Virus record (IMG/VR): IMGVR_UViG_3300031394_000586
Span: 1-23,828 of that record
Length of the DNA stretch: 23,828 bases
From: a virus
Reading direction: 5' to 3' (one strand)
The translations under genes and the position numbers were made by a program. Of this stretch, positions 6,966-18,768 are shown piece by piece. The notes under the pieces are model-generated. The model was not told the DNA's origin, did not search any database, and worked only from the letters and a program-made list of their open reading frames with translations. Position 1 is the first letter of the stretch, and the number at the start of each line of letters is the position of its first letter.

Positions 6966-7168
6966 TGGGTGGCACCATCTGGATTGCCACCAAGGGCGAT
7001 GACGCGCGTCCGCCAAGGCAGGCGGCGGGGAAAGGTCTCGAAGCTGGCCTGTCCGGAGGAGAGGCTTTCCCCGGGTGCCAGTACCCCGAAATGCAATGCC
7101 GGGCCATGGGCAATCCAGAAGGTCCGGGTTGTGGCGGTGAAGCTGTGCGTGGTCAGATCATGGGTCAT
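6962..7168 (-). CDS. Small hypothetical protein, 68 residues
   Basis: No family was recognised. The ATG at 7168 overlaps the stop of the DUF285 protein (ATGA), and its own stop overlaps the start of the heme-oxygenase-like gene (ATGA). This double coupling is the main reason to believe it is translated; a longer upstream in-frame extension (to 7258) would run into the previous coding region. The sequence is Thr- and His-rich at the N-terminus (MTHDLTTHSFTATTRTFW), with a beta-like centre (HFGVLAPGESL) and a basic FPRRLPWRTRVIALGG stretch at residues 46-61. No signal peptide or membrane segment is visible. It may be a small virion or assembly factor tied to its neighbours. Confidence 0.6.
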   Translation of the reverse strand: MTHDLTTHSFTATTRTFWIAHGPALHFGVLAPGESLSSGQASFETFPRRLPWRTRVIALGGNPDGATQ

Positions 7169-10035
7169 GCGGGGGTGTCTCCGATAAGTGTCCAAGCGGC
7201 GCCTGCGATCAGCAGCGTTGCGGTTGAAAGCAAGCCGGTCCAGCTGGTGACACTCCAAGGATCGGCACCAGTGCCGGTCGCCTGCGGGCTGTCGTCGGGG
7301 TCGTAGAGGGTCCAGTCGGGGCCGGTTTTGAGGAAATACCAGCCGTCTACGTTGAGATAGACGCTGGTGGCGGCGTTAAAGGGATAGGGACCGTTTGCTT
7401 CGGGCGTGGTGGCCCCTGCGACACTCAGGCTGCGCGCCGTCGTGAGAAACGCGCGCCCGGCTACCGCGTTGGTAAATCGCGACCCCGGTTGATAGGCGGT
7501 AGTGTTGAAACGGCGCGCCTCGAAGAGCGCTGCAACATTGAGCGGCCCGCTGATGGTGGCAACACGGTTTGCCCAGCCTGTCAGCAGGCGCGAATAATTG
7601 GCCTCTGAGAAGGCGCGCTCGACATCAATCGCCATGAAATCCGACAGATCAACGCCGAGTGCGCGCAGTGGCCATTGGGAAATATCCTGATCAAAGCTCT
7701 GGCGGCACCCTCGAAACATGTCGCGCAGGGTCTCGACGCGGCTGACATCCCAAGCCCCGATGGGCTGGTTGAAGCGGTGATGGGGACTGTTGGAGCCGCC
7801 GTCCCCTGAGCGGAACATGGCGCGCATATTGGTCACATTGGAAACATCCCAAGCCACGATTGAGGGGCTGCCGCCGTTGTTGAACTCCGCCCGCTGTGCA
7901 GCGCCTGCGCCGACCGCGCCAAACATCGCCTCCATGGTGATGACGTTCGAGACGTTCCAGCCACCGATGTCCTGGTCGAAGAAGGCACGTTGGGCATTGG
8001 TGCTGACGGAGGCGAACATGAAGGCCATGTCGATTACGCCTGAGACGTCCCAGGTGCCGATCGGCTTGTTGAACAGCCCGCTGCGAAACATCCCCTGCAT
8101 GGTGGTGACGGCCGCGACGTTCCAGGCCCCCAGCGGTTGGTCATAATCGCAATTCGCGAACATCTCGCTCATATCGGTGACGCTCGAGACGTCCCATGCA
8201 TTAAGAGAGCGGTTGAACCCATGAAACCCCGACACGCCGAGGAACATGCCGGATGTGGTGATGACGTTGGCGGTGTTCCAGGCGGAGATGTCCTGGTTGA
8301 AGCTGCGTGCCAGCGCGAACATGCGGTGCAGGTTGGTGGCAGCGGAGGTGTTCCACTGATTGAGCGGTTGGTTGAACGCATGGGTGTTCTGGCTGATGCC
8401 GGGATTGGCGAGATGGCCCATGAAACCTTCGAAGTTTTGCACAGTGGAGACATTCCAGCCATTCAGCGGCTGGTTGAAGGCGGCACCGATTTTTCCGACA
8501 TTGGCGCGCGCGGTGCAGCCAAACATCAGGCGCATGTTGGTGATGCTGCTGACGTCCCAGCTGGCAATGGGCTGATTGAACAGCACACGCCCGTCGCGTC
8601 CGCCGTAGTAATCGCCGATGGTCTGGACGAACATCTCCTCCATTGAGGTGAGGCTCTCCCAATTACCAAGGGAGAACGGGCTATTCATCTGGCTGTCGGC
8701 GAAGGCCTGGAAGACATCTGTGACGCGCCCCACGTCCCAATTGGCGCAGTTTGGGCCGATGCCATTCGAGCGATAGAAGATCCTGCGCAGGTTGGTGATG
8801 TTGCGGGTATCCAGGTCGCGCAGATCAGCGGCGCAAACGCTCTCTTGGAACAGCTCCTCAAAGCTGGTGACGGTCTCGGGGATGTTTGGGGTGATATAAT
8901 CCAGCGCCGTGGCGGTCTGTCGAAACGCGCCGCGCAAGGATGTGAGCCCCATGGCAAAGCCAATGTTCTCGACGCGGATCAGCCCTGACTGGTCGATGGG
9001 CTGGGTGGTACCGTACCAGTCAAGACGACCGGTGATGGTGACGGTCACGCGCGGGCCAGAACCCTCGGCATAGGTATGCGGCTTGATCCCGGCGGTGGTG
9101 AATCGCTCAGAGTTGCCGTCGCCCCAGTCAATCATGACATCGAGGGGGTTGTTGATCGTGCCACCTCCGAGCGGTACGAAGATCGTGCGTGCGGTGGCAA
9201 GCGCCAGATCATAGGTCAGGATCAAAGAGGCTGCGCCGAGAAAGAAGCTGCGCGGGGAGGACCAAGCGGAATAGATCATCGGAGCGGAGGCATTGAGCCG
9301 CCCGCCATAGCGGCTGCGCCAGAGATAGTTCGCAGCAGGCACCAGCGGCGGGATCGGGACGGTGGTGATGGCCCCGCTGGTGTGGGTCACGGTGATCAGG
9401 GGCGCGTCGACGCCGGGCGTGGCATCGGGCGCATAGAACGCGGTCTGGGTCTCGCCGTAGCCATAGCCAAAGAGCGACGCGCTCTCGAAATCCGTGATGC
9501 GCACTGTGCCGGTGATGGCATTCTCGCGGGTGATGGGCGTGGGGCGCGAGATCAGCTCGGGGAAGGTCTGGGCATAAGGAACAGAGAAGTTCGATTGCGC
9601 CCCGCTGGTGCCGGTATAGGCAGCGCGCCAGAGCACGCGGTCGCCGGGACCAAAGCCGTCCTCGGGGAATTCCAGCTGATAGGTATTGCCAAAGCCTGAC
9701 ACGATGCGCGTCAGTGCGCCGTCAAAATCCACGCCGTTGCTGGAAATCTCAAAGATGATACCAGTCTGCTCAAGGCCAGCAGGCGAGCGAAACGTGGTCA
9801 GGCGCAGCTGGGTGCGCTCATCAACGCTGAAGGGCACAAGTGCCGAGGGGCGCAGGATCTCGTTGTCCTCGATGGGCACGATCCATTCAAGGCCGTTGGA
9901 ATAGTAGAACTGGCCGTTCTCGCCTACCACCGCCGCCCCAAAATACTGCGCCGCATCAAGTGGGATCGGGACGGGATAGATCAGGGACTGGCCGACAAAG
10001 CGGCCACGGCCAGTGGCGTAGCGCAGAATACTCAT
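7165..10035 (-). CDS. Large tail-associated protein with BspA-type DUF285 repeats
   Basis: This is a 956-residue protein. Residues 1-265 look like phage fibre or Fn3-like beta domains. Residues 270-345 contain DWGDG (303-307) in a PKD-like beta sandwich often preceding DUF285 repeats. About 13 DUF285 units run from 431 to 801, each near the form FNQPI..WDVS.VT.M..MF, spaced 24-34 residues. The LLTGWA motif (817-822) is the usual end of such arrays. The C-terminus (830-956) has a YLNVDGWYFLKTGPDWTLYDP segment. DUF285 repeats are best known from surface proteins of mycoplasmas, Bacteroidetes and protists, where they are linked to adhesion. Here they probably form a receptor-binding or host-surface-binding element. 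There is no signal peptide. The ATG overlaps the upstream stop, and the stop overlaps the next start, both as ATGA. Confidence 0.85.
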   Translation of the reverse strand: MSILRYATGRGRFVGQSLIYPVPIPLDAAQYFGAAVVGENGQFYYSNGLEWIVPIEDNEILRPSALVPFSVDERTQLRLTTFRSPAGLEQTGIIFEISSNGVDFDGALTRIVSGFGNTYQLEFPEDGFGPGDRVLWRAAYTGTSGAQSNFSVPYAQTFPELISRPTPITRENAITGTVRITDFESASLFGYGYGETQTAFYAPDATPGVDAPLITVTHTSGAITTVPIPPLVPAANYLWRSRYGGRLNASAPMIYSAWSSPRSFFLGAASLILTYDLALATARTIFVPLGGGTINNPLDVMIDWGDGNSERFTTAGIKPHTYAEGSGPRVTVTITGRLDWYGTTQPIDQSGLIRVENIGFAMGLTSLRGAFRQTATALDYITPNIPETVTSFEELFQESVCAADLRDLDTRNITNLRRIFYRSNGIGPNCANWDVGRVTDVFQAFADSQMNSPFSLGNWESLTSMEEMFVQTIGDYYGGRDGRVLFNQPIASWDVSSITNMRLMFGCTARANVGKIGAAFNQPLNGWNVSTVQNFEGFMGHLANPGISQNTHAFNQPLNQWNTSAATNLHRMFALARSFNQDISAWNTANVITTSGMFLGVSGFHGFNRSLNAWDVSSVTDMSEMFANCDYDQPLGAWNVAAVTTMQGMFRSGLFNKPIGTWDVSGVIDMAFMFASVSTNAQRAFFDQDIGGWNVSNVITMEAMFGAVGAGAAQRAEFNNGGSPSIVAWDVSNVTNMRAMFRSGDGGSNSPHHRFNQPIGAWDVSRVETLRDMFRGCRQSFDQDISQWPLRALGVDLSDFMAIDVERAFSEANYSRLLTGWANRVATISGPLNVAALFEARRFNTTAYQPGSRFTNAVAGRAFLTTARSLSVAGATTPEANGPYPFNAATSVYLNVDGWYFLKTGPDWTLYDPDDSPQATGTGADPWSVTSWTGLLSTATLLIAGAAWTLIGDTPA
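7636..8745 (-). repeat. DUF285 (BspA/PARCEL-type) repeat array within the coding region
   Basis: About 13 degenerate repeats encode units with invariant W, the pattern [WDV or WNV]S.VT.M..MF and, in most, a leading FNQP or FDQD. Clear units begin near residues 486, 520, 554, 579, 607, 631, 655, 686, 723, 755 and 781, with weaker ones near 431 and 457. The DNA shows recurring GACGTC or GACGTT cores beside the Trp codon. Spacing varies because some units carry 5-12 residue insertions. The repeats are divergent, so recent slippage is not evident. DUF285 sequences have been described as palindromic amphipathic repeat coding elements shared horizontally among unrelated microbes. Confidence 0.88.
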
Positions 10036-17210: not shown

Positions 17211-17630
17211 TCAGGCCAGCGGGTCTGACGTTGAATAATGCAGAACGATCGGGATGATCGCGGCCTTCAGGCTGGCCGCACCCTCAACAGGTAAATCCAC
17301 CGGCTGTGGTGCTTCGGCTTCGATCCAGTCGCAAAGACCCCCAAGTGTTCTGTCGGTACGGATCACCGCGCCGATCTGTCCGCAAAGTACAGCGAAACCC
17401 GTGTCGCGGTTCGCGCCCTGAACGATGACTTCAAGCTCGCTGCGATGCTGGTAATGATAGGTCAGGGGCGACAGCGTCACCGCAGGATCGCCGGGATCGC
17501 CATCGCGCAGGATCAGCAGGCCCGCAGGAGGGATGCGCTCTGGCAGGACCTCGCCGCGCAAGGCAGTGGCGGGCAGCGTCTGCAGCACAGTGTGCAGCGC
17601 GGTAAGAATGGTTTCTCGGGTCGTGGGCAT
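17211..17630 (-). CDS. Tail terminator / minor tail protein U-like
   Basis: This 139-residue protein begins MPTTRETILTALHTVLQ, with an N-terminal helix followed by LPATALRGEVLPERIPPAGLLILRDG, the pattern of gpU-like tail terminators. The central part (YHYQHRSELEVIVQG) and C-terminal strands (AAIIPIVLHYSTSDPLA) fit the small alpha-beta fold. This family stops tube growth and joins tail to head. The ATG at 17630 was chosen because a GAGGA ribosome site lies 10 nt upstream; a TTG at 17651 would give seven more residues but lacks that spacing. It lies directly before the tail tube gene, as U precedes V in lambda. A plus-strand gene separates it from the upstream head-tail gene. Confidence 0.82.
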   Translation of the reverse strand: MPTTRETILTALHTVLQTLPATALRGEVLPERIPPAGLLILRDGDPGDPAVTLSPLTYHYQHRSELEVIVQGANRDTGFAVLCGQIGAVIRTDRTLGGLCDWIEAEAPQPVDLPVEGAASLKAAIIPIVLHYSTSDPLA

Positions 17631-17720
17631 TGGCTTTGTATCCTCGCCCAAGCTATAAAGGCGCAGGCGTTTTTAGTGATCGTGTAGGCGAGCTTGCGCC
17701 AGATCATTCATCTTCATGGT

Positions 17721-17733
17721 TTTACATGGTAAA
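17721..17733. other. Perfect 13-bp palindrome upstream of the HPF-like gene
   Basis: The sequence TTTACATGGTAAA reads as a 5-bp inverted repeat around a 3-nt centre, inside an AT-richer stretch 28 bp before the plus-strand ATG. It could be an operator, or the TTTACA could act as a -35-like element, but no good -10 box is found at the right distance. Functional meaning is inference only. Confidence 0.3.
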
Positions 17734-17760
17734 TGAGCGCATACAAACGGGAGAACCTAC

Positions 17761-18075
17761 ATGCAGTTTCAACTGAATACCGATGCCAACATTCAAGGCG
17801 ACGAACGTCTGGCCGAAGTGGCCGAAGCGGTTGTTACGTCCGCGCTCGGGCATCTGACCGACCGACTGTCACGGATCGAGGTGCATCTGGCCGATGTGAA
17901 TGGTGCAAAGGGCGGGGCTGACGATATTCGCTGCACTGTTGAAGCGCGTCCCGAGGGAATGCAGCCGCAGACCATCACCCACAATGATGCCAATGTGGAC
18001 GCAGCCCTGCACGGCGCATCGAAAAAAATCCGCGCCTTGCTGGACAGCGAATTCGGCAAGCTTGGACGTAGATAG
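17761..18075 (+). CDS. HPF/RaiA-like ribosome hibernation factor homologue (putative moron)
   Basis: This 104-residue protein is the only plus-strand gene, set antisense between two late tail genes. It has the short HPF/RaiA layout: an N-terminal beta strand (MQFQLNTDANIQG), a helix (ERLAEVAEAVVTSALGHLTDRLSR), a strand with IEVHLADVNG (39-48), an ADDIRCTVEARPEG strand (53-66) and a C-terminal helix (NVDAALHGASKKIRALLDSEFGKL, about 78-101). Members of this family bind the 30S decoding region and stop translation in stationary phase or stress. The ATG at 17761 has a GGGAG ribosome site about 9 nt upstream. Its orientation, own upstream region and bacterial-type function fit a moron expressed from the prophage. 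It is similar in base composition to its neighbours. No terminator was seen downstream. Confidence 0.8.
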   Translation: MQFQLNTDANIQGDERLAEVAEAVVTSALGHLTDRLSRIEVHLADVNGAKGGADDIRCTVEARPEGMQPQTITHNDANVDAALHGASKKIRALLDSEFGKLGRR

Positions 18076-18138
18076 GTCCCACCGATGACGTAGGCGATCC
18101 AGTTTTGCACTGAGAATTCTCCGCATCCTCGTCGCCAA

Positions 18139-18768
18139 TCATCGCCGACCTTCCACCCACTTCGCCACAATCGCCCCCGGCATCCTCTCCTGCGCAGCCT
18201 TCGCATCCCGCGCCAGATCAAGCCGTTTACGCAGTTTTACCTGCCGCACCAACAGGAAGATTGGCACTGTTGCCTTTCCGCGCCCGGTTTTTGATCTTGA
18301 GGCGACGCCAAGCCCACGATTGTTCAGCCGCCCCTCGGCCACGAGCAGGCTCGGTCCCCGCCTGCGATAGATAAACCGGAGCCGAAGCCCACGCCGTCGT
18401 TCCCATTCGCCGGGGGTGATCCGGCCACCGCGCGCGCCCTTGCCTGCAGCCTCTGTCGGGATCGCCAGCCAAAAGCCGTCCTTGGAGCGGATCAGGGGCC
18501 CGGTGTCATGTGCGCCGATGATCACGGGCGCTTTTGACCACACAAGTGCTGCGGCATCGATGCTCTCACCAACCTTCGGATAGGTCTGGCTGCGGATCGA
18601 ATTGCCGAGCCGTCGACCCAGCCCCGCTTGCGCAATCTGCCCGCGCCAGTCGGATTTAAGCTGTGTCCCGGCCGCACGCATCGCCGCAGTGACCGCCTTT
18701 TCTCCTGCCTTGATTTCGGCTGCCATAATCGCGGCCAGGTTAGGGGAGATGGTAATGTTGAGTTTCAT
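18139..18768 (-). CDS. DUF6441 family protein in the gpZ position
   Basis: This 209-residue protein begins MKLNITISPNLAAIMAAEIKAGEKAVTAAM, with the ERAVTAAMR-type helix typical of DUF6441 proteins and of HK97 gp10 / lambda Z-like tail completion proteins. It is basic overall, with an RRRGLRLRFIYRRRGPSLLV stretch in the second half (125-143) and a lysine- and arginine-rich C-terminus. Between the head-tail joiner and the terminator it occupies the position of Z in lambda, suggesting a tail-completion or head-proximal tail role, by inference from order. The ATG overlaps the joiner's stop as ATGA. The next late gene lies about 500 bp further on, past the antisense HPF-like gene. Confidence 0.78.
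   Translation of the reverse strand: MKLNITISPNLAAIMAAEIKAGEKAVTAAMRAAGTQLKSDWRGQIAQAGLGRRLGNSIRSQTYPKVGESIDAAALVWSKAPVIIGAHDTGPLIRSKDGFWLAIPTEAAGKGARGGRITPGEWERRRGLRLRFIYRRRGPSLLVAEGRLNNRGLGVASRSKTGRGKATVPIFLLVRQVKLRKRLDLARDAKAAQERMPGAIVAKWVEGRR

Follow-up and report, generated by a model that had tools for sequence, protein, structure and literature searches.

A divergent HPF/RaiA-like gene carried as an antisense moron in the late operon of temperate Rhodobacterales siphophages

Known hibernation factors and the closest relatives

Hibernation-promoting factors (HPFs) are already known in virulent rV5-like coliphages and in Cronobacter phage GAP32 (Mizuno et al. 2019, PMC6375957), and HPF has also been reported in virulent coliphages (PMC6969025). 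The gene analyzed here lies in the IMG/VR virus record IMGVR_UViG_3300031394_000586, whose 23,828 bases constitute the analyzed stretch of DNA (hereafter, the window). Its product resembles the rV5-like and GAP32 proteins in being short, phage-encoded and of a predicted HPF fold. However, those phages are large virulent myophages with a canonical HPF, whereas the present gene belongs to temperate siphophages, represents a divergent subfamily and occupies an antisense cargo slot. A tblastn search with the window protein (50,697 phage records, E 1e-3) matched no rV5-like or GAP32 HPF. Hibernation factors encoded by prophages were not described in any paper found by our literature search, although such an absence is weak evidence. 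New here are the subfamily itself, its occurrence in temperate siphophages, the fixed cargo slot that it occupies in antisense, and the selection measured on it.

The closest solved relative of the window protein is the 'ribosomal subunit interface protein' of Acinetobacter baumannii, the factor modelled in an hpf-bound 70S ribosome (7M4Z, chain v). The two share 38–39% identity over approximately 100 residues, the signature D-x-N-x-x-KGG...EARP and the same predicted fold, but the A. baumannii gene is chromosomal, adjoins urate catabolism genes and has no phage setting. The authors used a homology model to fit the A. baumannii factor, and saw no 100S particles (PMC8263017); its identity in the map thus rests on them. 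Among the matches listed for an E. coli HPF query, none came from Acinetobacter, but A. baumannii might still possess a second HPF.

Three further groups are related. Chromosomal copies in Rhodobacterales (Yoonia, Roseovarius, Palleronia and others) are 63–88% identical to the window protein, but lie outside phage structural genes. The long HPF of the hosts shares the HPF fold in its N-domain, but this N-domain is basic and is followed by a C-terminal dimerisation domain. The short HPF of gammaproteobacteria acts with RMF, whereas no RMF was found over the cut-off in six Rhodobacterales genomes (the E. coli control was positive).

The gene and its predicted product

The open reading frame at positions 17761–18075 (plus strand) encodes 104 amino acids from an ATG codon, with a GGAG ribosome-binding site 7 nt upstream (17750–17753) that is conserved in the aligned upstream regions of phage copies. 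Because many plus-strand open reading frames occur in this G+C-rich window, size alone has little meaning. Nevertheless, homologues at 43 complete viral loci and approximately 30 bacterial loci, a near-constant length and an excess of synonymous changes confirm that it is a real gene. The original prediction described it as the only plus-strand gene of the window, and this fits our reading, as the other plus-strand open reading frames appear opposite large minus-strand genes. The minus strand carries the late operon, comprising genes for the portal, protease, head–tail attachment, DUF6441 protein and tail terminator, followed by tube, chaperone, tape measure and tail-tip genes; several of these names were inferred from position.

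We compared the window protein with known families. The score against Pfam PF02482 (Ribosomal_S30AE) was 15.4 bits, below the gathering cut-off of 23.7, and searches of NCBIfam and PHROGs returned no family; for these reasons, a profile pipeline could label the protein hypothetical. By Pfam's rule, it is accordingly a divergent HPF/RaiA relative and not a PF02482 member. The family as a whole was more readily recognized: PF02482 matched 30 of 42 members with an E-value of 0.1 or lower (best, 3e-11), TIGR00741 matched three (best, 1.5e-7), and a family profile search matched 7m4z_v at E 1e-29. Even the single sequence matched this chain over residues 1–100 (phmmer, E 3.3e-21). The HPF/RaiA similarity expected by the original prediction was therefore not recovered by the Pfam and NCBIfam profiles at their cut-offs, but was borne out by the comparison with 7m4z_v and by the fold.

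Structural comparison pointed in the same direction. The AlphaFold model (pLDDT 90.9) shows a beta-alpha-beta-beta-beta-alpha order, and Foldseek against the PDB placed 7m4z_v first (E 1.2e-11, TM 0.90). In a VIA comparison, the model scored Z 16.5 to 7m4z_v (rmsd 1.3, 102 aligned) and Z 14.7 to E. coli HPF (6h4n_x); the best 33 rows were all HPF, RaiA, protein Y or their relatives (Z 16.5 to 8.5), and the next fold scored 7.9. These results support the assignment of the predicted structure to the HPF/RaiA fold and family. In both the sequence and the model, the 104-aa protein terminates after its final helix, with no C-terminal dimerisation domain.

The HPF-fold protein might no longer act on ribosomes, and might bind, for example, another RNA or protein. 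The window protein is acidic (pI 5.5), with a net charge of about –2 in the first helix and about +3 in the last, whereas the N-domain of the host long HPF has a basic pI of 9.3. Although the subfamily signature D-x-N-x-x-KGG...EARP is conserved, there is no close match to canonical HPFs; an hhalign comparison of the phage family with the host long HPF gave E 0.005 and a probability of 7%, a weak result from thin alignments. In addition, the rV5 HPF was not found on ribosomes; in high salt, it was not retained there (PMC6375957). The acidic pI and the behaviour of the rV5 protein also count against the ribosome-silencing role that we favor below. However, a mildly acidic pI (6.5) is also seen in E. 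coli HPF, and a 70S ribosome was the setting in which the closest solved relative was modelled; we therefore consider a loss of ribosomal function improbable.

A cargo slot in the late operon

The original prediction placed the gene between the gpZ-position and gpU-like genes, and the profiles agree: the right flank at 18139–18768 (minus strand) encodes a DUF6441 protein (PF20039, E 2.4e-50; phrog_6367), and the left flank at 17211–17651 (minus strand) encodes a tail terminator (phrog_4204, E 5.1e-34). The segment from the DUF6441 stop codon to the likely tail-terminator ATG (17630), namely positions 17631–18138, is missing in relatives with an empty site. The HPF gene occupied this site in the antisense orientation in all 43 complete viral copies and in the prophage loci of four isolates; a few contigs ending near the HPF locus show one flank only.

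We surveyed the 80 nearest DUF6441 loci, among which 68 displayed both flanks. The site was empty at 16 of these, where the DUF6441 and terminator genes overlap or are separated by a gap of 8 bp or less; three contained HPF, and 49 contained other DNA of 351–3790 bp. The DUF6441 protein of one empty-site phage was 98% identical to that of the window, and the HPF gene is thus accessory, the same site being empty in close relatives. Its description as an antisense moron within the late operon is supported, and more strongly than had been claimed, by the constant site and orientation in viral copies and by these empty sites. The DUF6441/tail-terminator junction is also a general cargo slot in related siphophages (loci L081–L157), a property absent from the original prediction. 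As judged by the longest open reading frame, 35 of the 49 other cargoes oppose the late operon, although this is a rough count because long chance open reading frames are common in these sequences.

The contents of the slot bear on the possibility that the prophage factor is a defence or abortive infection system, silencing translation upon attack by another phage and thereby protecting the lysogen population. Cargoes at other loci include ParDE, GNAT acetyltransferases, a RES domain, a PvuRts1I-like methyl-directed restriction enzyme and candidate defence proteins, and such toxin–antitoxin and restriction functions would suit this explanation. However, the slot also holds cargo without a link to defence, namely HU, a cold-shock domain, an EamA transporter and an acyl carrier protein; moreover, there is neither a trigger nor a known HPF defence system. 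We accordingly regard a defence role as having little probability. The slot, which also carries many proteins without a family, is nevertheless a place from which further stress and defence genes could be read off, and merits a survey of its own.

No long flanking repeats were found around the cargo. Some HPF phages contain partial duplicate copies of the tail terminator beside a second cargo gene (L014, 5184–6000; L042, 2604–4073; L028, 525–1891), which in L028 and L042 is a 297-aa open reading frame. These copies suggest recombination at the slot and a route by which cargo is gained.

The HPF gene presumably has its promoter in the divergent intergenic region of approximately 109 bp (17652–17760, plus strand), which is conserved in most phage copies. 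It contains the conserved block TTGCGCCAGATCA at 17694–17706; among the phage copies, TTGCGC..GATCA stands out. A scan of the window found no consensus sigma-70-type promoter and no intrinsic terminator after the HPF gene, so that the HPF transcript may read through, antisense, into DUF6441. Two regulatory sites were considered and rejected. The pattern CTTG-N17-21-CAT occurred upstream of 14 out of 30 phage copies, compared with 0.7 expected, although the copies are related; its resemblance to an RpoH site (CTTG-N18-CAT) breaks down when phage and chromosomal copies are taken together, and the –9 T, on which RpoHI critically depends (PMC3441632), is missing. A partial resemblance to an FNR-type site (TTGCG-N4-ATCA) was likewise not kept across phage and chromosomal copies. 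Complementarity between the HPF and late transcripts, which the original prediction had drawn from the opposite orientation, follows from the geometry if both strands are transcribed. We also considered antisense regulation of the late genes by the HPF transcript, and nothing points to such a regulatory role.

Hosts, selection and a possible role in the lysogen

Two IMG/VR pattern searches, one with the protein and the other with the family profile, gave the identical 43 complete viral loci, and one additional locus was a fragment cut at a contig end. The isolates whose prophage loci carry the gene belong to Roseisalinus, Roseovarius, Roseibaca and Rhodovulum, and include Roseibaca ekhonensis CECT 7235, Roseisalinus antarcticus CECT 7023 and Rhodovulum sp. 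12E13; a tyrosine integrase is present in one 41-kb relative. The HPF carriers are temperate siphophages of Rhodobacterales. Among the GenBank phage records, the above tblastn search found no true phage relative; like the IMG/VR searches, it reaches no further than close relatives. Its only two matches, both labelled 'Acinetobacter phage MD-2021a' (CAKLQH020000008.1 and CAKLQF020000012.1), look like mislabelled host chromosome; we read urate catabolism, DsbD and diguanylate cyclase genes in the former.

All six host-type genomes examined, four of which contain the prophage, encode a long HPF of about 190–250 aa with the C-terminal domain. In the four prophage hosts, the prophage copy is the sole member of its subfamily in the genome, and the long HPF is separate. 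In a sample of 197 Rhodobacterales genomes, 17 carried chromosomal homologues, as single genes in varied neighbourhoods. One of these, in a Rhodobacterales MAG (L048, 5878–6520), lies between dehydrogenase and thiamine-diphosphate enzyme genes, and is preceded by the phage intergenic region and followed by a decayed DUF6441 remnant. If the contig is correct, these remnants are a trace of phage-to-chromosome transfer, and the retained upstream region fits an independent HPF promoter. A single origin of the phage HPF copies is not supported, because they do not form one clade and the tree requires at least two changes; so short a protein allows no finer inference.

The HPF gene is under stronger purifying selection than its structural neighbours. 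The median pN/pS between phage copies was 0.13 for HPF (pairs with pS above 0.3) and 0.25–0.35 for the DUF6441, terminator, attachment and tube genes at a similar pS of about 0.5; this is a comparison of medians without a formal test, and the pairs share history. The low value speaks for a maintained protein function.

On this basis, we favor, with a probability of roughly 0.55, the reading that the gene is a RaiA-type moron of a temperate Rhodobacterales siphophage that is expressed in the lysogen and silences 70S ribosomes. The gene, its family and fold, site, orientation, selection and accessory status are established above; from these we infer ribosome binding, expression in the lysogen and a benefit. 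The single gene would act from the cargo slot, where it has a ribosome-binding site of its own and presumably a separate promoter, and its orientation against the late genes could allow the lysogen to express it at times when the late operon is off. The short product, without a dimerisation domain, would most likely bind the 30S decoding region and, under stress, hold 70S ribosomes idle and protected, as RaiA does. In so doing, it would occupy the site that the host long HPF would need for 100S dimers and, by analogy with RaiA, compete with that protein; because the dimerisation domain is absent, 100S formation by the phage protein alone is not expected. The 7M4Z relative, the ranking of folds, the lack of a C-terminal domain compared with the host long HPF and the lack of RMF above the cut-off argue for this reading, as do the constant site and orientation, the empty sites, the pN/pS values, the sole subfamily copy, the integrase and the upstream region of L048. 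By contrast, the negative scan for a sigma-70-type promoter and an intrinsic terminator, and the fitting of the 7M4Z factor from a homology model, weigh against it.

The same features could also serve the opposite end. At infection or induction, the phage protein might displace the long HPF and block 100S formation, leaving ribosomes free for the phage, an idea already proposed for viral HPFs (Mizuno et al. 2019, PMC6375957). Hosts with a long HPF and no RMF above the cut-off, together with a phage protein without a dimerisation domain, are consistent with such counter-hibernation. However, the HPF gene opposes the late genes and would thus not be made with them, and the chromosomal copies in 17 out of 197 genomes suggest use by the cell itself; we therefore judge it unlikely. 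The orientation, the mixed slot cargo and the chromosomal copies make survival of the lysogen somewhat likelier than use by the induced phage.

Under the favored lysogen reading, the HPF cargo may change the way in which the host or the virus deals with translation during stress. More tentatively, and with some doubt, the prophage short-HPF subfamily might override the long-HPF storage of the host, such that idle 70S ribosomes are stored instead of 100S. If this is true, idle 70S storage would set the pace at which the cell, or the induced phage, restarts translation. Isolate hosts that carry the prophage, a separate long HPF and no RMF above the cut-off, with natural empty-site relatives, provide a tractable case in which prophage control of ribosome storage becomes directly testable.

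Elsewhere in the window, the tail-fibre region encodes a 956-aa protein (7165–10035, minus strand) with stretches of DUF285 repeats (PF03382, E 1.8e-80), which are unusual for a phage tail.
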